Positions 834 to 29,300 of a stretch of DNA of 41,616 nucleotides are shown piece after piece. The notes beneath the pieces are model-generated. The model did no database searches and was not told the origin of the DNA. It worked only from the letters and a program-made list of their open reading frames with translations. Origin of the DNA: a virus; IMG/VR virus record IMGVR_UViG_3300049217_000138, positions 1 to 41,616 of that record; one strand, written 5' to 3'. Each line of letters opens with the position of its first letter. Positions within the stretch are counted from its first letter, which is position 1. The position numbers were made by a program, and so were the translations under genes.

Positions 834-1073
834 ATGACAGACGATAGTGGAAAGTTTTACGGTGAAGTGCTATGGTTCGATCCTAAAAGGGGATTCGGAT
901 TTATTGGTTGGGAAAAAGACGGAGTCAAACAAAAAGACATGTTCGTACATTTCTCTGATGTCTCTTGCGAAGGTTTCAAGACTCTGTACAAGCATCAGAA
1001 GGTTTCCTTCGGCCTAGGAATCAACAAACACGGGGATCCTAAAGCTACCTCCGTAGAGATCATGAAGATCTAA
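834..1073 (+). CDS. Cold-shock-domain (CspA-like) nucleic-acid-binding protein
   Basis: The 79-aa protein is a single cold-shock OB fold. It shows the family's opening GEVLWFDPKRGFGFI (residues 10-24), containing the RNP1-like segment KRGFGFIGW, and the RNP2-like DMFVHFSDV at residues 35-43. The aromatics F15, F21, F23, F37 and F40 sit at positions used for stacking on single-stranded RNA or DNA. Length matches CspA (about 70 aa). It is preceded by AAAGGA 6 nt before ATG. Cold-shock proteins melt RNA structure or antiterminate; a phage copy may favour late mRNA translation (inference). Its stop abuts the stop of the convergent minus-strand gene at 1074 with no gap. Confidence 0.92.
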   Translation: MTDDSGKFYGEVLWFDPKRGFGFIGWEKDGVKQKDMFVHFSDVSCEGFKTLYKHQKVSFGLGINKHGDPKATSVEIMKI

Positions 1074-3242: not shown

Positions 3243-3605
3243 ATGTTGAATACTCTTTCTTATACTCCAGGACAAACAGTCATCGTGTTTCTTGAAACAT
3301 TGGATGGTTATGGTCAACGTGCGGATGGATATATACCACCTGTTATTACCAGATTGATTTTTCCAGATTTGACCTTAGCTATTGGTTATCCAGTCAATAT
3401 GGTAAAACTGGATATTGGTCTTTATTACTACCAATTTATCTTACCATCAGGCGCACTTTTACCTTCCGGAAATAGTTCTATAGGCAGTTATTTAGTGGAT
3501 ATTGCGTACGATAACCCTACTACTGGATACATCAATACGGCTCTTTATCAAATACAGGTATCAGCACCATTTGGAAACTTTGGTTTGACCGTAGGGGGCG
3601 CATGA
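3243..3605 (+). CDS. Small beta-sandwich virion protein
   Basis: The 120-aa product is all-beta: an N-terminal strand (TPGQTVIVFLETLDGYGQRA), a central VITRLIFPDLTLAIGYP, then LDIGLYYYQFILPSG and GSYLVDIAYDNP. The pattern is that of an Ig-like or bacterial-interface domain with alternating hydrophobics. It contains two DGY tripeptides. Its stop overlaps the next ATG (ATGA at 3602-3605), and the following protein also begins with an Ig-like domain, so the two are probably made and assembled together, for example in the neck or collar. The ribosome site is poor (GGGCCCCT). Confidence 0.75.
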   Translation: MLNTLSYTPGQTVIVFLETLDGYGQRADGYIPPVITRLIFPDLTLAIGYPVNMVKLDIGLYYYQFILPSGALLPSGNSSIGSYLVDIAYDNPTTGYINTALYQIQVSAPFGNFGLTVGGA

Positions 3606-4501
3606 CCATCAAGCATCGTGGAGAATTGCTCGACGTTACCGATCAGGTTGAGCTAACTGTACAATTTAATGACACCTTCGGTAACCCTGTCAACACGGAT
3701 TCCTTCCCGACAATTTCTATCGTTCAACCAAGCGGCTTAGTATTGCTAGCGCCGACCTCTACGGGAGTGGAGCAGGAAGAAACCGGTAAGTATTCTTATA
3801 TCTTTACCGTGCCGATCAACGGTCCCTACGGTGTTTTCAATGACGTGTGGACTGGTTTCATCAATGGTTTTCGAGTGGAAACCACTTTTAGCTTTGTAGT
3901 CAATCACACACAAATTCCCGCTATCAACTCAGATGGTCACGTCCATTTGGGTGATGATCCAGGTTTTCGCTATTCTCAATGCGCCCTCATCAATATCAAC
4001 AAGCTGATGAAATCCCTACGAGCCCGCCTCAATAGCGCTGGCAAAGCCAAGGCAGCAGATTCTTTTGGCAATACCATCTACGTGGACTGCGATATTTTTT
4101 CTGTGGACACATTGACCACTTTTATTGCTACCGCTCTATGGGATTTCAACCAAGTGCCTTACTTCACCTTTTTCACTTTTGATGAAGACATTGTGGTAGA
4201 TCAATTTGGCGAAATCTTAGTAGAGGGTGCTACCCTATATGCTTTAGCTTCCATCGCTCTGATTGAGCGTGGTCGTGAATTTCAGATCACGGACAACGGA
4301 CTCAACTTCAACCCGCCAACCGTGAGCGAACTCTTGCAGACGCAATACAGCACACTCTTATCTCATTACTGGGAAAAGCTGAAGTATATCAAGAACAGTC
4401 TGCGTCCAGCTCCAAGAGGTTTGGGAGTCTTTAGTATGAATAGTGCCATCAACCCGGCATTTGCTCGTCTTCGCCATCTAAGGGCAAGGCGTCTTATTTG
4501 A
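3602..4501 (+). CDS. Structural protein: Ig-like N-domain plus conserved C-domain
   Basis: The 299-aa protein has an N-terminal beta-sandwich (about 1-100: VTDQVELTVQFNDTFGNPVN, then GKYSYIFTVP), resembling the preceding protein's fold. A mixed alpha/beta region of about 190 residues follows, with a helical INKLMKSLRARLNSAGKAKA segment and VSELLQTQYSTLLSHYWEKL. It ends in a very basic tail (RLRHLRARRLI). The layout suggests a neck, connector or tail-attachment protein with a nucleic-acid- or capsid-facing tail, but that is inference from position. It is coupled by a 4-nt overlap to the upstream gene. A homing endonuclease gene interrupts the synteny after it. Confidence 0.72.
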   Translation: MTIKHRGELLDVTDQVELTVQFNDTFGNPVNTDSFPTISIVQPSGLVLLAPTSTGVEQEETGKYSYIFTVPINGPYGVFNDVWTGFINGFRVETTFSFVVNHTQIPAINSDGHVHLGDDPGFRYSQCALININKLMKSLRARLNSAGKAKAADSFGNTIYVDCDIFSVDTLTTFIATALWDFNQVPYFTFFTFDEDIVVDQFGEILVEGATLYALASIALIERGREFQITDNGLNFNPPTVSELLQTQYSTLLSHYWEKLKYIKNSLRPAPRGLGVFSMNSAINPAFARLRHLRARRLI

Positions 4502-4552
4502 GCGCTCGAAGGTTTGTTCAATCTGTGATATATGATCATCAGGAGAACGAAC

Positions 4553-5548
4553 ATGACAAACAAACTGCTCGCAAAAATTACGCCAGAACGTCTCATTCAG
4601 GATTTTCAGGAGTTAGGATCTGCTCATAAAATTGCTGCCAAATACGGCATCAACGTTGCCACTGTCTACACCGCATTCAAGCTAATAAATTACGACTGTC
4701 GCGTCAGGCAGGACGTGGCGGCGCTGGTGTCCAAAGACGTTTTGGAGGAAGCGTACGAACGCTTGGGAACGCTCAAAGCGGTCGGTCGAGAGCTGAAAAT
4801 TGATCCAGACAGCGTAAAACTGTATATGCAGAAGTATGATCTGGATTACGATAAACAAGTCATCTATAATTGTGATCACGACTTCTTCTCCAGAGATAAT
4901 GAAGAGACATTCTATGTGGCTGGGTTTATAGCTGCTGATGGATGTGTAAAAGACCGTAAAAACACAAACGGCAGCCGTAGATATGAAATGGCTATTGGAC
5001 TGTCAAAAGAAGATAAAGGTTTTCTTGAACAGCTTCGTCAAATAATGAAGGCAGAAACACCCATTAGAGACTTCTTGGTCAAAAACTCAAAACGTAATCC
5101 TGAGTGGAACGATACTTGGAAAAGTGATTTGGTTATTACCTCTCAACAAATGTGCGATGACCTTAAACGCTTCAATATCGTTCCTCGCAAGAGCCTGATC
5201 TACACATTCCCTGAGTGGATGAAAACTCATCATCTCAAACACCATTTTATCAGGGGCTACAACGACGGTGATGGTAGCTTCTACGTCCCTAAACTGGCTG
5301 AAGGAAAACAAACGAAACAGATCTATTTTTCTATGCGCGGAACACCCTCATTCCTGAAAGATGTCCGATATATCTTGGAGCAAGAGTGTTCGTTGGAAGA
5401 ACGAGAAAAGGAGATCCGTATTTCATCAGGGCATGGCGTCCTGGAGTACGGCGGCAATGGAGTTGTGTCTAAAATTGTAGACTATCTGTACAAAGATGCA
5501 AACATTTATCTTCAGCGAAAATTCGACATAGTAAAGGAAAGCGCATGA
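4553..5548 (+). CDS. LAGLIDADG homing endonuclease with N-terminal HTH repeats
   Basis: This 331-aa protein carries two LAGLIDADG-type helices: AGFIAADG at residues 123-130 and RGYNDGDG at 234-241, whose last Asp (D129, D240) would bind the catalytic metal. A one-chain, two-motif enzyme makes a double-strand break at a long asymmetric site. The N-terminus has two helix-turn-helix-like repeats (about 23-48, HKIAAKYGINVATVYTAF; about 73-98, LKAVGRELKIDPDSVKLY), probably for extra DNA contacts. An ATG at 4532 is possible, but ATG 4553 has AGGAG 7 nt upstream, so I use it. It is free-standing between structural genes, typical of a selfish mobile gene in large phages. Confidence 0.93.
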   Translation: MTNKLLAKITPERLIQDFQELGSAHKIAAKYGINVATVYTAFKLINYDCRVRQDVAALVSKDVLEEAYERLGTLKAVGRELKIDPDSVKLYMQKYDLDYDKQVIYNCDHDFFSRDNEETFYVAGFIAADGCVKDRKNTNGSRRYEMAIGLSKEDKGFLEQLRQIMKAETPIRDFLVKNSKRNPEWNDTWKSDLVITSQQMCDDLKRFNIVPRKSLIYTFPEWMKTHHLKHHFIRGYNDGDGSFYVPKLAEGKQTKQIYFSMRGTPSFLKDVRYILEQECSLEEREKEIRISSGHGVLEYGGNGVVSKIVDYLYKDANIYLQRKFDIVKESA

Positions 5549-6017: not shown

Positions 6018-6181
6018 CTGACAATAAATTCGAGGAACCGTGTGCCAATGACGGCAAGCCTTGTTGTTGGGTAAGTGAAGAGTTTTTCGATGCCAACGGC
6101 GAGGTAGAATGCTGGGATTTGTATTGCGACAAATGCTTTCGTTATCGCGACTGGTCTAAAGACGAGCTGTCACCGGACTGA
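6014..6181 (+). CDS. Small Cys-rich zinc-ribbon-like protein, 55 aa
   Basis: The frame runs from ATG 6014 to TGA 6179-6181 and starts within the stop of the preceding gene (ATGA). The product has cysteines C10, C17, C18, C33, C38 and C41, with the pair CDKC at 38-41, as in treble-clef or ribbon proteins, and is acidic and rich in Trp and Phe. Its last 40 bp overlap the 3' end of the convergent gene at 6142. Coupled start, clean reading and the same Cys-rich character as its neighbour support it being real. No function is assigned. Confidence 0.55.
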   Translation: MTDNKFEEPCANDGKPCCWVSEEFFDANGEVECWDLYCDKCFRYRDWSKDELSPD

Positions 6182-6522
6182 TAAGTTTTGGTGCCAACGA
6201 CACTCTCACACTCCGCTTCAATTCCTTCGGAGAGAATCCACTCATCGGTAGTATAGGCAGATGCGATCCCCGTGATCCAGACGTTGGTGGCTCGCACGGT
6301 TTCTACCTTATCCTCATAAACTACTATATGCATCGGGTATTTCTGGGTAGATGCCTGAAAATTACTACGACCAAAGACATCATTCAATCTTGCACAAGAT
6401 AAACGCATCCTAGATATTTCAAGCTTAGGATTATTGCCGCCCTCTATCACTTTGAGTGATTGTATTGCACCAATTGGTTCTTTATTGTCAGCAAAAACTA
6501 GTATACTTATGGTAGTAGTCAT
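6142..6522 (-). CDS. Short relative of the tail tube protein
   Basis: This 126-aa protein aligns by eye with the tail tube protein at 21385. IGAIQSLKVI matches VGAVQSMAIS; YPMHIVVYEDK matches YPFDIIIYDKQ; TNVWITGIASAYTTDEWILS matches KNVWISGIDYTYQVSDWVIT; GIEAECESV matches TWEAEAIFS. It lacks the tube's first 30 residues, its extended loop (tube residues about 60-80) and its last 50 residues. It could be a specialised tube-fold subunit (tube initiator, terminator or adaptor) or a decayed duplicate. It lies last in a three-gene minus-strand cluster; the ribosome site is weak. Its 3' end overlaps the + strand gene at 6014. Confidence 0.75.
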   Translation of the reverse strand: MTTTISILVFADNKEPIGAIQSLKVIEGGNNPKLEISRMRLSCARLNDVFGRSNFQASTQKYPMHIVVYEDKVETVRATNVWITGIASAYTTDEWILSEGIEAECESVVGTKTYQSGDSSSLDQSR

Positions 6523-6548: not shown

Positions 6549-6845
6549 TTACCAGAAAGCTCTCAGTCTTTCCAATTGCTCCAACCGAATTTGAGCTTCT
6601 TGCGGGGTGATGTAGCCGTGCACGAAATTGGCAACAATGGGAACCCTCGGATCTCCTTCATTGTGAAGCTTGATGGAGACGATACCCGTAGCACTGATTA
6701 TCCACTCGTCTTTATTTCTGGTGTTAGTCCATAACCAACACAAGCCCTGAACCTTGGTTTTCTTGACGACCTTATCACCAACGGACTCTGCGAGACAAAT
6801 CTGGTCGATGATGCCTTTGTAAAAGACATACTCTTCCGCGTTCAT
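6549..6845 (-). CDS. Hypothetical protein, 98 aa
   Basis: The product has a helical start (EEYVFYKGIIDQICLAESVG), a central beta segment with paired Trp (GLCWLWTNTRNKDEWIISAT), and a helical end (TPQEAQIRLEQLERLRAFW). It starts inside the stop codon of the 2H phosphoesterase gene (4-nt overlap at 6842-6845), so the two are co-translated and may act together. I do not recognise a family. The WIISATGIVSIKLH stretch is compatible with a small beta barrel. Confidence 0.65.
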   Translation of the reverse strand: MNAEEYVFYKGIIDQICLAESVGDKVVKKTKVQGLCWLWTNTRNKDEWIISATGIVSIKLHNEGDPRVPIVANFVHGYITPQEAQIRLEQLERLRAFW

Positions 6846-7462
6846 CGATCTATTTTTCGTCTCTCAAAGGATGGCGTAAAGAAATCCTGCAACGGGTTAT
6901 CCGCAATCTTTGCGAAGACTTCCGCCTGTTGTAAAACCAAGGAGTGCTTCTGGCGTTCCGGTCCCTTGAGTGGGAAGGTGATGAAGATACGATCATCGGC
7001 ATGATCTCCGCCCCATAATACTATCTCACCTACCGAGAACTCGATAGCGGGCTCAATATCGAAGTCATCGTGTTTGTCTTTGGAATACGCCAACGTAATA
7101 TGTGGTCTGTAGTCCTTGAAAGTTTTGGAGTAATCTATCTTACGATCATCAAACTCTTTGCACAGCTTCTTATGCACTTCGTGTAGTTCTTTGGATACCA
7201 CGGGAGCAATGATCGGGATCGGCCCATCTTCGTAAGCTGGAAAGTGAGACACCTTAGATGTCTCAATCAAGAAAGGTTTGACTTCCGAGATAACTTTGTA
7301 AGTAGCTTCCGTGGCCCGAGTTATTTCCGAGATGGGCCAGTTATCTTCGAAACATAGGATGGTGATGTGATATTCGGAAGGAGTTTCTTTCTCTCCAGGT
7401 ACTTCCAGTCCCGCTATCAGTCTACCTATTTCCGCGGGAATTCGAATTCCTAAAAATGCCAT
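6842..7462 (-). CDS. 2H phosphoesterase / LigT-like protein
   Basis: Two His-x-Thr motifs define the family: YHITILCF (residues 31-38, H32/T34) and RPHITLAY (119-126, H121/T123), about 89 residues apart in a 206-aa protein. The opening AFLGIRIPAEIGRLI is also typical. The frame extends back to 7522, but ATG 7462 has GAGG 5 nt upstream and removes the overlap with the divergent gene at 7512, so I use it. Such enzymes open 2',3'-cyclic phosphates or other cyclic nucleotide linkages; phage members include RNA-repair enzymes and the anti-CBASS enzyme Acb1. Which substrate applies here cannot be told from sequence. The last 35 residues are an extra tail. Confidence 0.88.
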   Translation of the reverse strand: MAFLGIRIPAEIGRLIAGLEVPGEKETPSEYHITILCFEDNWPISEITRATEATYKVISEVKPFLIETSKVSHFPAYEDGPIPIIAPVVSKELHEVHKKLCKEFDDRKIDYSKTFKDYRPHITLAYSKDKHDDFDIEPAIEFSVGEIVLWGGDHADDRIFITFPLKGPERQKHSLVLQQAEVFAKIADNPLQDFFTPSFERRKIDR

Positions 7463-7511
7463 ATGAACCTCGTCAGCATATATCGCAATATGACTATTAT
7501 GCCATATTAAG
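7463..7511. promoter_or_regulatory. Divergent 49-bp region between minus-strand island and + strand genes
   Basis: The minus-strand operon starts at 7462 and the metallopeptidase-like gene at 7512, so promoters for one or both should lie here. On the minus strand it carries TTAATATGGCATAATAG, with TAATAT and CATAAT as -10-like hexamers, and GAGG before the 2H start. On the + strand the only notable elements are CATATAT and CATATT. No convincing -35 was found. Confidence 0.35.
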
Positions 7512-8036
7512 ATGCCGAGCAAAAAAGATGAGAAGATACCACTTTCTCAAGTAAAAAAGCTACCTTACAAGTCTTTGAATCGTATGATCAAAAAGATGCG
7601 TGAGTTCTTGAAAAAGAACGATGTTGTTCAGAAGATGTTCCAAGACTACGGTGTGGATATCTCCGAGCTGGACTACATTCCTATGATGTTTGGCAACTTA
7701 GACGTCTCCGCCAAAACCGATCATGGCGTTATCATTTACAATTACAAGCTGCTTACCGATGGTGATTTCTTCAAGGACTTCTCTTATGGTGTTCACGAAA
7801 TGACCCACTGGTTGCAACAAACTACCGGCAACAAGGCCACCAAAAGTTCTGATGAGGGCAGCTACTTAGATAATCCCTATGAACAAGAGGGTTTTCAGAA
7901 TCAAGTGCAATACATTGCCGATCAGTTTGGTCCAGGTGAAGCTGAACAATATGTGGATGATTTGCTAGAGCATCACGAAGTAGAATCCGATAAAGAAGTA
8001 GAAGAGAAAAAAGAAACGCTTATGAGCAAAATCTAA
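7512..8036 (+). CDS. HExxH putative zinc metallopeptidase
   Basis: The 174-aa protein contains HEMTH at residues 95-99 within SYGVHEMTHWLQQ, the zincin active-site helix, with two glutamates (E124, E126) in NPYEQEGFQNQVQYIADQ about 25-27 residues later as candidates for the third ligand, a gluzincin-like layout. The N-terminal 40 residues are basic (KKLPYKSLNRMIKKMREFLK) and the C-terminus is acidic and helical. No signal peptide is seen. It could process virion proteins, be carried in the virion, or act on a host protein. Proteins of this small type are also known as non-catalytic phage structural subunits, so activity is not assured. Confidence 0.72.
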   Translation: MPSKKDEKIPLSQVKKLPYKSLNRMIKKMREFLKKNDVVQKMFQDYGVDISELDYIPMMFGNLDVSAKTDHGVIIYNYKLLTDGDFFKDFSYGVHEMTHWLQQTTGNKATKSSDEGSYLDNPYEQEGFQNQVQYIADQFGPGEAEQYVDDLLEHHEVESDKEVEEKKETLMSKI

Positions 8037-8044
8037 GCACGGGT

Positions 8045-10066
8045 GTGCCGCTGTCAAGCTCTATTTTCAGCACAAGGGCTAATAAAATTGAATTAGGGTA
8101 TATGGTTCATTATGCTAATCCCGCTAGATCTGGTTTACACAAGGTAGCCTCTTTAGGTGATGGGTATTCTATTGCCATTCAGTGGTATCAGGCTTATCCC
8201 GATACCTTTACCAACAAGATTGCTTACCACATCTATTACTCTACGGTAGAAGACAATGTCTTTACCGATGGGGTCAAGTATATCGTTTTGGACGGCTCTC
8301 TTCGAGCCAATATTATTGAACTGACTCCGGGTCAGCAATATTTCTTCTGTGTTAGACCGGTAGAATATGATCCCAATGTCATTACCTTTTTGTCTGGTCT
8401 GCCTTTAGCATATGACAACCTTCGATTTTATCCTAGCAGTATGCTTCGCCAGGATATGTCGGCCACTGATTTGATTGTTCCGCTTTTAGATGCGGAAGGA
8501 TTTACTGCGAATGGTATAGTCAAGATCGGTGTAGAGCTGATAGAGTATGTGGCCATAGATGTCGTCAATAACAATCTGATTGTTCCGCCTGCCGGAAGTG
8601 GCACCCCCGCTCATTTGCTTTTGCAATCTAACTCACTTTACTATTTGCCTAACCCCGGAAATGTTGGACAGGGAACCATCGACTCACTTACTTTGGTTAG
8701 CACTAGCGCTAAAACAGAAACTTGGACTATTCGTTGCGTCAATGTTCCACCTGATGATAATTTGGATGGATATGCCAGATTTGAGACCATTGGTTCTGTC
8801 TCTGGTAATCCACCTTATATTGATGGCAATTATCCTGTATGGCAGGCTAATGGTGATATTGTTTCCAATGAAACTTTGAGTTTCTCAGTAAGCGGAACTT
8901 TCCCTGTTAGTGGCCCCAACTTTGTTCCAGGTGATTATTTTACGGTGCAAACTGTGGGAGCCAATCCAGGTCTACCGGGTGGTCGAGGTTTCAACTTCAC
9001 TCCCATCACCATTCACAACACTGATGGATATGATGGCTATAATTTCTGGAGCCCTATTGTTAGTGAGATAGCTATACTAGAAGATCTGCGTTGGGACAAT
9101 GTTTACGAATGTCAGTCGCGTTTTGAGTACCCTAATTTTCCGTTTACCATTTTAGATGGCTACAATCAGGTGACACAAGATATTCTGTCTACTAACTTAG
9201 CGCCGGCCGATGCGGTCAACGTTTTGTTTCCGATGTATGACTTTGCTGGCTATCACAGAACGGATCCAGTTTTACTTCTTAATGGAACCTGCGTTGGTAG
9301 CTATATCGGTGGCCAGATGGGATGTATTGATGGTTATGGTAACTACAATATCTTCCGAGGCTTCTCGCTCCAAGATCAAAACACACAGAGACAGGACGTC
9401 AAGCTGTCAGTAGATGGTGAACCAGCCGTTTTGATCAAGAGAGTGCAAACGGGCCGTACCTGTAACTGCTATCTAATCTCCAGCGAATATCCAGATGATC
9501 GTTGTCCTTTCTGCTATGGCACCAAGTTTGTCTTTGGTTATGAGCAGTATTTTGATCCTCGTCATTCTGACGGTCGTATTTTGGTGAGAACCAGTCCTAC
9601 GGCCGAAAATCTCAAGATGTATGAAGCTGGTATGGAATCCGAGTTCCCACTTGATATGTGGACTCTCACTGTGCCCACCATCAAGACCAGAGATATCATC
9701 GTCCTCTTCGACCAAGATAACAACGAGTCATTTAGATATGAAGTGGGAGATGTGACTAGAAACAAGACCATCCTTGGTTTGGATGGTGGCCAAAACTTCA
9801 AGACCTTCCGAATCCGTAAGACAGATCCGGCCTATCAAGTTAGAATCTTTAGGGACACCTCTGATTTCCCAGAGCACATACAAACAAGCCTGGCTATGGC
9901 CATAGGAACTCCGCCCCACAGTCATGATATTGTGATCAACGAGAAAATATTGTCAGTCAGCCAAATCAATCAGACTACCGCCGTTTCGCAGGGTCATAAT
10001 CATCCTATTATCAATGGGGTGGTGATGGAAGTGTTTGGACATACTCACAATATCATCTTACCATAA
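8045..10066 (+). CDS. Multi-domain neck/fibre-type virion protein with zinc ribbon and His-rich tip
   Basis: The 673-aa protein reads in order: an FN3-like beta domain (about 40-110, AIQWYQAYPDT, ending LTPGQQYFFCVRP); a beta segment; a beta domain at about 205-303 also found in the sheath protein; a region with several DGY turns; a zinc-ribbon-like C473-x-C475 and C487-x2-C490 unit followed by FDPRHSDGRILVR; and a C-terminus with three His-x-His motifs (HSH 625-627, HNH 651-653, HTH 666-668). Such His pairs bind metal in trimeric phage fibre tips such as T4 gp12. The start is GTG 8045 with a poor ribosome site; ATG 8102 is an alternative. Confidence 0.8.
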   Translation: MPLSSSIFSTRANKIELGYMVHYANPARSGLHKVASLGDGYSIAIQWYQAYPDTFTNKIAYHIYYSTVEDNVFTDGVKYIVLDGSLRANIIELTPGQQYFFCVRPVEYDPNVITFLSGLPLAYDNLRFYPSSMLRQDMSATDLIVPLLDAEGFTANGIVKIGVELIEYVAIDVVNNNLIVPPAGSGTPAHLLLQSNSLYYLPNPGNVGQGTIDSLTLVSTSAKTETWTIRCVNVPPDDNLDGYARFETIGSVSGNPPYIDGNYPVWQANGDIVSNETLSFSVSGTFPVSGPNFVPGDYFTVQTVGANPGLPGGRGFNFTPITIHNTDGYDGYNFWSPIVSEIAILEDLRWDNVYECQSRFEYPNFPFTILDGYNQVTQDILSTNLAPADAVNVLFPMYDFAGYHRTDPVLLLNGTCVGSYIGGQMGCIDGYGNYNIFRGFSLQDQNTQRQDVKLSVDGEPAVLIKRVQTGRTCNCYLISSEYPDDRCPFCYGTKFVFGYEQYFDPRHSDGRILVRTSPTAENLKMYEAGMESEFPLDMWTLTVPTIKTRDIIVLFDQDNNESFRYEVGDVTRNKTILGLDGGQNFKTFRIRKTDPAYQVRIFRDTSDFPEHIQTSLAMAIGTPPHSHDIVINEKILSVSQINQTTAVSQGHNHPIINGVVMEVFGHTHNIILP

Positions 10067-21384: not shown

Positions 21385-22074
21385 ATGGCAAATTCTTCTG
21401 CATACCCACAAACAGGTTCAACGCTTACACTACCAGGTGGTGTCAACGTAACCAGCACTGCAATATCTACTAACATTCTAATCACTGTTAGAGATCCAAA
21501 TGCTCCTGGTGGTTATGTTCCAGTAGGCGCTGTTCAATCTATGGCTATCTCTGAAAAGAGATCCATCAAGATGATTGATGAAGTCGGAACCGATGGACAC
21601 ATTGACTCAGTTCCAAATATGTCAACTAACATTACCGGAACTTGCCAAAGAGTTAGATTTGATAAGCTACGCGTAGCAGAAGCTTTCGATAGAAGCTTTA
21701 TGCATGTAGATGCTCAAGTGTATCCTTTCGATATTATCATCTATGACAAGCAAAAGCAAGCTGTAGGTAGCCAAGTTGCTACTGTCATCAAGAACGTTTG
21801 GATTTCTGGTATCGACTATACTTATCAAGTCAGCGATTGGGTTATTACTGATAGCATGACCTGGGAAGCTGAAGCTATCTTCAGCACCGTCAACGGTGGT
21901 CCAGCTGCTGTGGGTGGACAGCTCAATCTACAGCCATTCGGCATCAACAACCCAACTTGGATTGAACGTCAAGCTGATAGTGGTGCTAACGGTAGAAGAG
22001 GTTCTTTGGATGCTGCCGGTCTTATCGATCTTGGCTCCAGTAACTACGTCCCAAATACAACCACCATATTCTAA
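21385..22074 (+). CDS. Major tail tube protein
   Basis: The 229-aa protein directly follows the sheath gene and precedes the chaperone pair, the canonical place for the tube subunit. It has the tube-type beta pattern: VPVGAVQSMAISEKRS, DEVGTDGHIDSVPNMSTNIT (a loop like those stacking between hexamers), then VYPFDIIIYDKQKQAVGS and IKNVWISGIDYTYQVSDWVI. The last 50 residues are Gly/Asn-rich and may be flexible or line the tube. GGAG lies 9 nt before ATG. A terminator-like hairpin follows at 22102, as expected for a highly expressed gene. A shortened relative is encoded on the minus strand at 6142-6522. Confidence 0.9.
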   Translation: MANSSAYPQTGSTLTLPGGVNVTSTAISTNILITVRDPNAPGGYVPVGAVQSMAISEKRSIKMIDEVGTDGHIDSVPNMSTNITGTCQRVRFDKLRVAEAFDRSFMHVDAQVYPFDIIIYDKQKQAVGSQVATVIKNVWISGIDYTYQVSDWVITDSMTWEAEAIFSTVNGGPAAVGGQLNLQPFGINNPTWIERQADSGANGRRGSLDAAGLIDLGSSNYVPNTTTIF

Positions 22075-26387: not shown

Positions 26388-29300
26388 GTGGGTTTTCTAG
26401 GAGATTTATCTGATTCGTTATCGGCACAGCTTGGTATACAACAAAACAATACCACTGGGCTAGATTCTATTATCGATGGGCAACAAGTTCAATATGGTGC
26501 TCTGGGTGATTTTGCGTCCGAATTTGACCATACCGCAGAAAGAAGGTATGTAGAAGAGGGCTACTTGCAAAAGGATCCCTATGAGACTGATCCTAAATTG
26601 TCCGAAATACTATGGCAAGAGCCCAGTGCTACAGTGCTGGTCAAGAAAAAGATGTTCTCCTCTGTGGCCGAGAACTTCCGTCCTGATTTTATGGATGCGG
26701 ACGAAAGACTTTACTACAAGGCCATGTGCTTGCTTTTTCAGAACAAGTGTGTGCAGATTTCCGCGTTGGAAAAGCTCTCTAAAATACAGCAAGTAACTGC
26801 CGCAGTGGGCAGCATTAGTGAGCAATTGTATCCTTGGATCATTACTTTGACCGATACAGTAGTAGCTAACTCCAGCCTAGGTAATGGGGCCGCCCTTTTC
26901 GGAGCAGTAGCTGCCGGTAGCAACCCAATGACCACTCAGGATATGAGTAGCTTTATCTCTGTGGTTAATAGGTTAAGAGTAGTTAATACATATAGTCGTA
27001 CTAATCCATATACGACTTGGATTTCTGATCCTACCAATTTATTTCAAGCTAATTTTGGTCCCGGCACGGGAGTTATTGAGCTAACTAATTTCACCAACAT
27101 CAATACTACTACCAGTGTAGATTTGAAATCTCCTGGTCATTTTAGTTTTACCGTTTCTGATCCATATGAGTCCATGATCATTAGTGATTATGATATAGAG
27201 CTTGCCATTAGTGATGCTACCAATGTATTTTACAACAACAAAAGTTTTGAGTTTGGCACCCAAAGCATTAATCAAACCATCAATACACAACAAGGAATGC
27301 TCAATAGCCAACGAGCCGCCAGAAATGCTAGCCCTATTACTTTCAAGGTGCAGCCTAACTCATTGAGTAGCAATCAAGTAATAGCTATTATCGATCGCAC
27401 GGGCCTCAACATTCCGTTTACTTATGATCCTACAGGTGGCACCGGTATTCCAGGTGTGGGTTTGACAGGTTTAGGCAATGACGTGACCGTGCCTGCCGAT
27501 TATCTTTTTGGTGGAAACATTGCCGGCTATGATGGTTTAGCTACTACCAGTACGCCCATCGGTCCCTTCAACAACATTGTTCCTTTGATTAGTAATTCTG
27601 AGTTGACTACTTTTCAAGCTATCGTGACGGCCATTTTCCAACAGCTACAGCTATTGAAAAACGCCTCCGTGACTTCGGTTGTCAACAATGACTCTAACAA
27701 CTATGCCCGCCGTAAGCTTCGTTTCAATTTCTCTGGCAAGCTGGTTATTTCACCCATGGATGTCGTTCACATCTACATGAACTCTAAGAGTCAGTTCGAT
27801 GCCAAGATACTAACTGGTTTAGAGCAGATGTTCAGTGGTGGCGGTATTCTACAGAACGTCACCGTTACTCCCGCTTCACCCGTAGATACACTCTTCAATC
27901 CATCCGGTAACATTGCCCTACAAGCAGAGAAGTCTATCTATGCTGGACCCGACTTCCCCAACTATCTATGGTCACTAGTGCGTAGTAATTTCGTCACTGA
28001 CAGCGAAGGCACCCACGTTTTCGCCGGACTAGTCGATTCCTGTAATGATAACTGGAATCAAGGCAAATTCACTATGGAAATAGCCGGTAAGGACAATACC
28101 GCCTATTTTGATCAGGGTGTGGTTAATTTCAAGCCAGGAGTAGATGCTTTCTGTGGTCTTATCTTTGACCCGCTGACACCCTTCAAGTCCAACTTCGATA
28201 GCGTTACTGTCAATGCTGTGCCATCTACTCTGGAATTGTTGGACGAAAACAAGTATCTGATGACCGATACAGGTGCCGGCTCACTCCTCAAATACAAACT
28301 AGGATCCATCGCAGGTCAAAAGGCTACTACTGGCAACTATATTCAGGATCAAGGCTTCAACCAAAACACGGCCGGTACGACTACCAGAACCTTCTTCGCT
28401 CCTGATGGGTTAGCTTACAAATGGAAACAGGGCATTGGTATTTTCACTCAGTTCGGTTCTACTACCACCATCAATGATCCTAGTTTGGTTGGTTCTCCCA
28501 ATGTTTTCAATGAGCCCTTTGCTGGTTTGGACGTGATGAACGTTCTATCTTTATTGATTGCGGGCACTCCCTATAGCTATACCACTTTTTACAAGGGCAC
28601 CTCTGGTGTAGGTAGTTTCAGTGGCGATCCCAACAGTGGCAACAACGCCTCTTACTCCTTTATCAACTCTTTACAAACTAGCCTGCTGAACAACAATACT
28701 CTATGGGGCAATTTTATTCCCTTCAAGAGTCTGATTATGAACCAATCAGCCGTAGCTGCTGCTATGCAGGCCCAGCTTACCGCTACCAGCACCAATGCCG
28801 TTCTAGATGGACAGCTCAAGCAACTACAAGTCCTCAACAATGCAATGACGGGTTTAGGCGCGCTCAATGCCATCTCTACTAACGTCAAGAATTCCGAGGA
28901 TCCTTCCATTGCCGCTCAGATTACTGCCTTACAAGCCCAATCCACTAATCTGGTATCCCAAATCAACTCTAACATTGCCGCTTTCCAAGCTGCCGTCTCT
29001 CAATTTTCTCAGCAAACTGGCAATGCATCTGCCTACAGTAGCAACTCTCTAACAGATGGACAGAATGATCCTAGTGATACCGCCGCTCAAGAACTGATTC
29101 GTCAGCAAGTCAACTATCTAACTCGCCGTATGTCCTATGATGTCCGTGCCAATGATGACAAGAACCTGTTTATTGTAGACGATTACTACGATTTGGATTA
29201 TGATGTGGCCGCCTATAATCAGGCATTGACAGATGGCGTTAAGCTATTCTCTAACACCTATACTACGGTTAGAGAGCAGATTACTAACGTAGCTCATCTT

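Follow-up and report, generated by a model that had tools for sequence, protein, structure and literature searches.

T4 gp48, gp54 and gp3 and the tube paralogues of Afp and Pvc are tube-fold initiators, terminators and adaptors; each is a non-identical copy of the tube fold within one genome, and the initiators and terminators are obligatory and encoded in the tail module. Reviews assign ring-to-ring contacts in tail tubes to the long loop and the N-terminus of the tube protein, and the loop experiments cited here were done on siphophage tubes. Tubes of T5 were abolished once the N-terminus or the loop was deleted, loop deletion in SPP1 halted ring-to-ring growth, and the same deletion in YSD1 led to free, mostly hexameric rings, while YSD1 tube protein without the N-loop remained monomeric (PMC8718954). 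The long-loop mutants of lambda and SPP1 include dominant negatives (PMC9022992). Tube proteins are also recognized by host defence: the SPR tail tube protein activates DSR2 (PMC10981675, PMC11087589), and DSR2 holds it by the long loop (aa 35-55) and the C-terminal loop (aa 202-217) (PMC11087589). In this activator/inhibitor pair, formed by the SPR tail tube and DSAD1, the tube fold is the ligand of a defence sensor. Two further proteins, Tab and Tai, block tail assembly, and the genes encoding them run counter to the late operon (PMC10884400, PMC11364771). Tab (tape measure) and Tai (central tail fibre) belong to the prophages JBD26 and phi80, and thus to temperate phages, and antidote genes have been identified for Tab and some Tai.

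In this study, we analysed a viral DNA stretch of 41,616 nucleotides, hereafter the window, which carries a small paralogue of its own major tail tube gene (Table 1). As accessory cargo, this tube-fold paralogue is a variant on the known ones: like those of T4, Afp and Pvc it is a non-identical tube-fold copy in one genome, but it is dispensable and lies in a cargo slot. With the major tail tube family of the huge phages, to which phage G gp179 and gp180 are distantly related, it has in common a homologous β-sandwich core and several sequence blocks; in contrast to those tubes, it has no N-arm, long loop or C-terminal extension, lies away from the sheath gene and is found in two genomes only. 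The structural element that it has lost is the one lost or changed in the long-loop mutants of lambda gpV, SPP1 gp17.1, T5 pb6 and YSD1_22; these mutants were laboratory versions of full tubes, whereas the paralogue occurs naturally, is fixed and has diverged further. Compared with the SPR tube, it lacks the regions that would correspond to the DSR2-bound loop and C-terminal segment. Its likeness to Tab and Tai lies in the proposed working, a block of tail assembly, and in a gene direction against the late operon; no homology to either was noticed.

Table 1. Features of the window discussed in the text
Feature	Position	Strand	Evidence or remark
Conserved gene, 299 aa, left border of the variable slot	3602..4501	plus	found across relatives
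LAGLIDADG homing endonuclease inside the slot	4532..5548	plus	80% identical copy in G015/G017
Stripped tube-fold paralogue (P0001), 126 aa	6142..6522	minus	BLASTP, Smith-Waterman, profile searches, HHalign, predicted fold
10-residue stub GGNNPKLEIS, paralogue codons 28-37, in place of the tubes' 31-residue long-loop stretch	6412..6441	minus	E-to-R spacing
98-aa ORF between the 2H gene and the paralogue	6549..6845	minus	ORF list; search of relatives
2H phosphoesterase, 206 aa, two HIT motifs	6842..7462	minus	Pfam 2_5_RNA_ligase2 1.2e-12; slot neighbour in most relatives
Divergent intergenic stretch with minus-strand element ATAGTCATAT	7463..7511		element common to most relatives compared
Conserved gene, 174 aa, right border of the variable slot	7512..8036	plus	found across relatives
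Tail sheath protein, 967 aa	18459..21362	plus	phrog_2839 tail sheath 4.3e-10; phage G gp178
Major tail tube protein, 229 aa, directly after the sheath gene	21385..22074	plus	PDB fold matches; phage G gp180 96.8%
Tube codons 59-81, long loop with KMIDEVGTDGH motif, missing from the paralogue	21559..21627	plus	alignment, model

A diverged homologue of the tail tube protein

The paralogue ORF opens with ATG and lies on the strand opposite to the tube gene. By BLASTP it matched the 229-aa tube protein with 51 bits over 80 residues (E 2e-13), and the Smith-Waterman score of the pair was 123, compared with at most 59 over 5,000 shuffles; no other ORF of the window exceeded 46. HHalign of the paralogue family with the tube family gave 99.0% probability (E 2.9e-18, 105 columns), and in reciprocal profile searches the paralogue retrieved the tube and the tube retrieved the paralogue. 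Blocks common to the paralogue and the tubes were G-A-V/I-Q-S, R-x-R, Q-x-YP and NVW. Judged on sequence, this similarity lies far above chance and is homology. The paralogy with the tube gene, put forward in the original prediction together with the extent and strand of the ORF, thus held up in the profile-profile comparison that it had named as a check. No match for the paralogue was found in PHROGs, Pfam, NCBIfam or PADLOC, and no meaningful match to the tube profile or to a joint profile was found among PDB sequences. A third, weak match in the window (27552-27713, E 1.5e-4) contained two stops and was set aside as noise.

The 229-aa protein is a tail tube encoded right behind the sheath gene. 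Its profile matched phage G gp179 (82.8%) in addition to gp180, both of which are virion structural proteins adjoining the sheath gp178, and the best isolate matches of the window sheath were the sheath of Eggerthella phage LE2-3 and gp178. In LE2-3, the gene after the sheath was unmatched by the tube profile. In Bacillus phage G itself, gp179 and gp180 (L122, 4468-5786), annotated only as virion structural, resemble two tandem tail tubes beside gp178. Members of the tube family occurred on 62 viral contigs, the longest of 481 kb, and the family alignment of the huge-phage group comprised 40 sequences. A separate observation concerns the sheath: a 673-aa protein of the window (8045-10066) has in its residues ~187-303 a domain in common with sheath residues 119-244, at ~36-51% identity across relatives, and 13 relatives have a shorter form of this protein (~520-550 aa) without it. 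It is probably a common surface domain that has been acquired or lost as a whole.

Structure prediction gave the tube fold for both proteins and an unrelated fold for neither. The model of the 229-aa tube was of modest confidence (pLDDT 59.6) and gave 60 matches in PDB at E<=1e-3, of which 50 were listed; these are tail tubes, Hcp and tube-related neck or baseplate proteins. The paralogue model (pLDDT 73.6, pTM 0.66) shows the tube β-sandwich with a helix, and nearly all of its top-ranked PDB matches were again tail tubes, Hcp and tube-related neck or baseplate proteins, among them those of phage 812, phiCD508, Mu, the SPR tube in complex with DSR2, Hcp and diffocin. In the viral library BFVD, phage G gp179 ranked first and gp180 third. 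The best fold-match E-values of the paralogue (2.7e-3 in PDB, 2.4e-4 in BFVD) are weak as single scores and the alignment behind its model included tubes, so the fold supports the sequence result and is not independent proof of it. Taken together, these comparisons show a diverged tail-tube homologue with a retained β-sandwich core, and that the protein belongs to the tube fold is almost certain.

Regions lost from the paralogue

The paralogue begins at about tube residue 26-28, without the N-terminal ~25 residues of the tube, and it has nothing corresponding to the C-terminal extension beyond about tube residue 168. The third difference lies between E57 and R89 of the tube, both invariant in the alignment. 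This stretch has 31-32 residues in 20/20 tubes compared, all of which carry the motif KMIDEVG(T/N)DGH; it is reduced to 10 residues in the window paralogue and to 17 in its orthologue in G001 (IMGVR_UViG_3300033402_000292, 251,895 bp), and the motif is gone from both. According to the secondary structure of the paralogue and tube models, the lost stretch is the β2-β3 long loop. All three regions claimed as missing in the original prediction are therefore absent. Phage G gp179 retains a related loop, SESRNI.K.QELGTEGVVQAVP, and gp180 has a similar one; since these distant tube-like proteins keep it, the loss of the loop in the paralogue is most likely the derived state.

Two elements of functional tubes, the long β2-β3 loop and the N-terminal arm or N-loop, are thus lacking. 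By analogy with the siphophage deletions, we consider that the paralogue is probably unable to stack as a tube subunit does. Only 21/55 aligned tube-conserved columns are unchanged in both paralogue copies, so recognition of the ring partners that the true tube has may be lost. This may reflect specificity for another tube or a loss of tube binding.

The accessory slot, its distribution and selection

The paralogue lies in a slot of a huge-phage genome between two conserved genes, whose products are 58-89% identical to those of the window across the group, and the contents of the slot vary among relatives, in agreement with the accessory island originally described. The slot holds the 2H gene alone in G002 and G010, a 105-aa ORF in G005, a methyltransferase (Methyltransf_24, 7.9e-20) in G016 and a P-loop AAA_33 protein in G026. 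Homing endonuclease ORFs or fragments occur in the slots of G006, G008, G013, G015, G017, G018 and G020, and the slots of the remaining relatives (17 further genomes were read) contain genes of unknown kind. In G006 (L101) and G008 (L102), the 2H gene is truncated after ~72 codons and a LAGLIDADG endonuclease-like ORF of 281 aa adjoins it on the same strand. Several of the larger genomes (G001, G002, G008, G016 and G021) carry a second copy of residues ~130-279 of the 299-aa border protein far from the first, at 52-59% identity.

The original prediction had also placed the paralogue beside a 2H phosphoesterase, and this proved correct, with the 98-aa ORF between the two. This ORF had no relatives in 20 related records, and G001 has none between the 2H gene and the tube copy; it is a candidate cognate antidote gene, missing in G001. 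The 2H gene probably starts at 7462, and the ORF caller placed its start at 7522. The paralogue sits downstream of it on the minus strand. Ahead of the paralogue in the window, neither a convincing promoter nor a convincing ribosome site came to light. In G015, G016, G017 and G019 (L105, L106, L107, L109), TTGACA-17-TARGAT, read by eye as a good sigma-70-type promoter match, lies just upstream of the 2H gene on its strand; the window and G001 lack this promoter match, although the element ATAGTCATAT is common to most relatives compared. These features hint at transcription separate from the late genes.

In 32 of the tube-family records, the profile search found a second tube-like gene in G001 only. 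This is the one further genome with the pair: its copy (178,935-179,309, minus strand, 125 aa) occupies the same slot and strand as in the window, and as in the window it lies ~16 kb before the tube gene. A cold shock protein-like gene of the window (834-1073; phrog_729, 3.3e-12) is also found in G001, at 88% identity. Scans of viral contigs for close relatives, queried with either copy or with the joint alignment, gave this one orthologue and no others, a degenerate DNA pattern for EAECESV hit four further contigs, none with a relative of the paralogue, and a genome-contig scan and a phage-record search gave no relatives. Altogether, the tube copy was present in 2/19 slots, each read whole in a set of records that includes some fragments and some near-duplicates, and it was absent from the slots of 17 relatives in which both tube and sheath genes are retained. 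The paralogue is neither found in every relative nor placed beside the sheath, as a major tube would be, and it is not a conserved tail-module gene, as an initiator or terminator would be. It is very probably an accessory gene, and its product is unlikely to serve as a normal tube subunit or as a typical initiator or terminator.

The two paralogue copies are 57% identical over 118 codons (dN 0.33, dS 1.67, dN/dS ~0.2), compared with 78% for the tubes of the same phages (dN 0.18, dS 1.12); the codon comparison thus shows a paralogue that diverges faster than the tube yet is under purifying selection. Residues 70-116 are ~74% identical between the copies, versus ~46% before them, and both copies carry a block unlike all tubes, EDKVET(V/I)RATNVW ... 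SEG(I/V)EAECESV(V/T)GTKTY. The tree groups the two copies together on a very long branch that lies outside every tube. Placing their origin within the clade of the window's tube was not rejected (AU p 0.44), so a recent duplication and an old or horizontal origin are indistinguishable. The tubes of the window and G001 are not mutual closest relatives (moderate support), which suggests a history of loss in other relatives or of transfer between phages.

Possible roles in and outside tail assembly

Considering the above, we tentatively propose that the paralogue could be an inhibitor or capper of tube assembly, by analogy with the loop mutants. Among the roles considered this one fits best, and the original prediction had not named it in this form. 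It would be made in the infected cell from the minus-strand 2H-phosphoesterase operon and would act as a stacking-defective tube subunit. The retained core might let it join or cap hexamer rings or the growing tube end, and axial growth would then stop, with no loop or N-arm offered to the next ring. Such a role would require binding to a tube protein. The target may be a related phage co-infecting the cell, whose tail assembly would be disturbed, or else a host tail-like particle; the phage would profit where the tail hit is a competitor's, and its own tube could be spared through divergence, timing or dose. Because the gene is dispensable in close relatives and sits in a cargo position, interference with other tails would be its likeliest use. 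Tab and Tai show that interference does strike tail assembly and that genes for it may run against the late operon. A more specific version, a natural dominant-negative tube kept as a swap-in weapon against the tail building of competing phages during co-infection, is doubtful. As the YSD1 protein without its N-loop is monomeric, the combined loss of loop and N-arm could instead yield an inert monomer. If the specific version is true, a natural gene with a laboratory-type loop loss has been selected in a cargo slot and phages evolved an assembly poison themselves; tail-assembly interference between co-infecting phages would become directly testable, and a ready-made inhibitor of contractile tails would be at hand.

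The original prediction had suggested, among other roles, a tube initiator or terminator. As a normal component this found no support in the comparison, since the gene is absent from the locus in the 17 relatives and lies outside the tail module, and the paralogue is accessory rather than needed. An optional component is a different matter: the paralogue might be a minor part of its own virion, such as a cap, adaptor or inner ring at the tube end, or might set tube length. That initiators, terminators and adaptors are commonly tube-fold, that a ring with its stacking elements missing from one face would be suited to capping, and that phage G has two tube-like virion proteins adjoining its sheath all agree with such a part. 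This role is nevertheless unlikely, given that the relatives without the paralogue keep their tail module, that the gene is on the other strand outside this module, and that it diverges much faster than the tube.

It is also not very likely that the protein has been recruited to a new function outside tails, for instance as a binder of RNA, an enzyme or a host protein working with the 2H phosphoesterase. The block unlike all tubes points in this direction, and residues 70-116, being the best kept, may carry a new functional surface; against it, the core residues common to tubes (G-A, R-x-R, Q-x-YP, NVW) are retained, and the 2H gene is present without a tube copy in most relatives.

An anti-defence decoy, which the original prediction had also raised in general terms, would bind a host tube sensor (DSR2 or similar) without triggering it. 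The activation of DSR2 by the SPR tube, the presence of that complex among the fold matches, and the usual slot neighbour, a 2H phosphoesterase, whose fold is also that of the anti-CBASS nuclease Acb1 (Pfam Acb1 E 2e-4, short of the family cut-off), speak for it. The decoy is weakened because two of the surfaces gripped by DSR2, the long loop and the C-terminal segment, are missing, if the jumbo-phage loop is equivalent to that of SPR, and we regard it as improbable.

Finally, a decaying, functionless duplicate would account for the large deletions relative to the tube and for the occurrence in two genomes only, but this is highly improbable and largely refuted by the selection signal in the codon comparison (dN/dS ~0.2), with open frames of 126 and 125 aa, nearly equal in length, that have been retained in one position and orientation by two phages with tubes only 78% identical.
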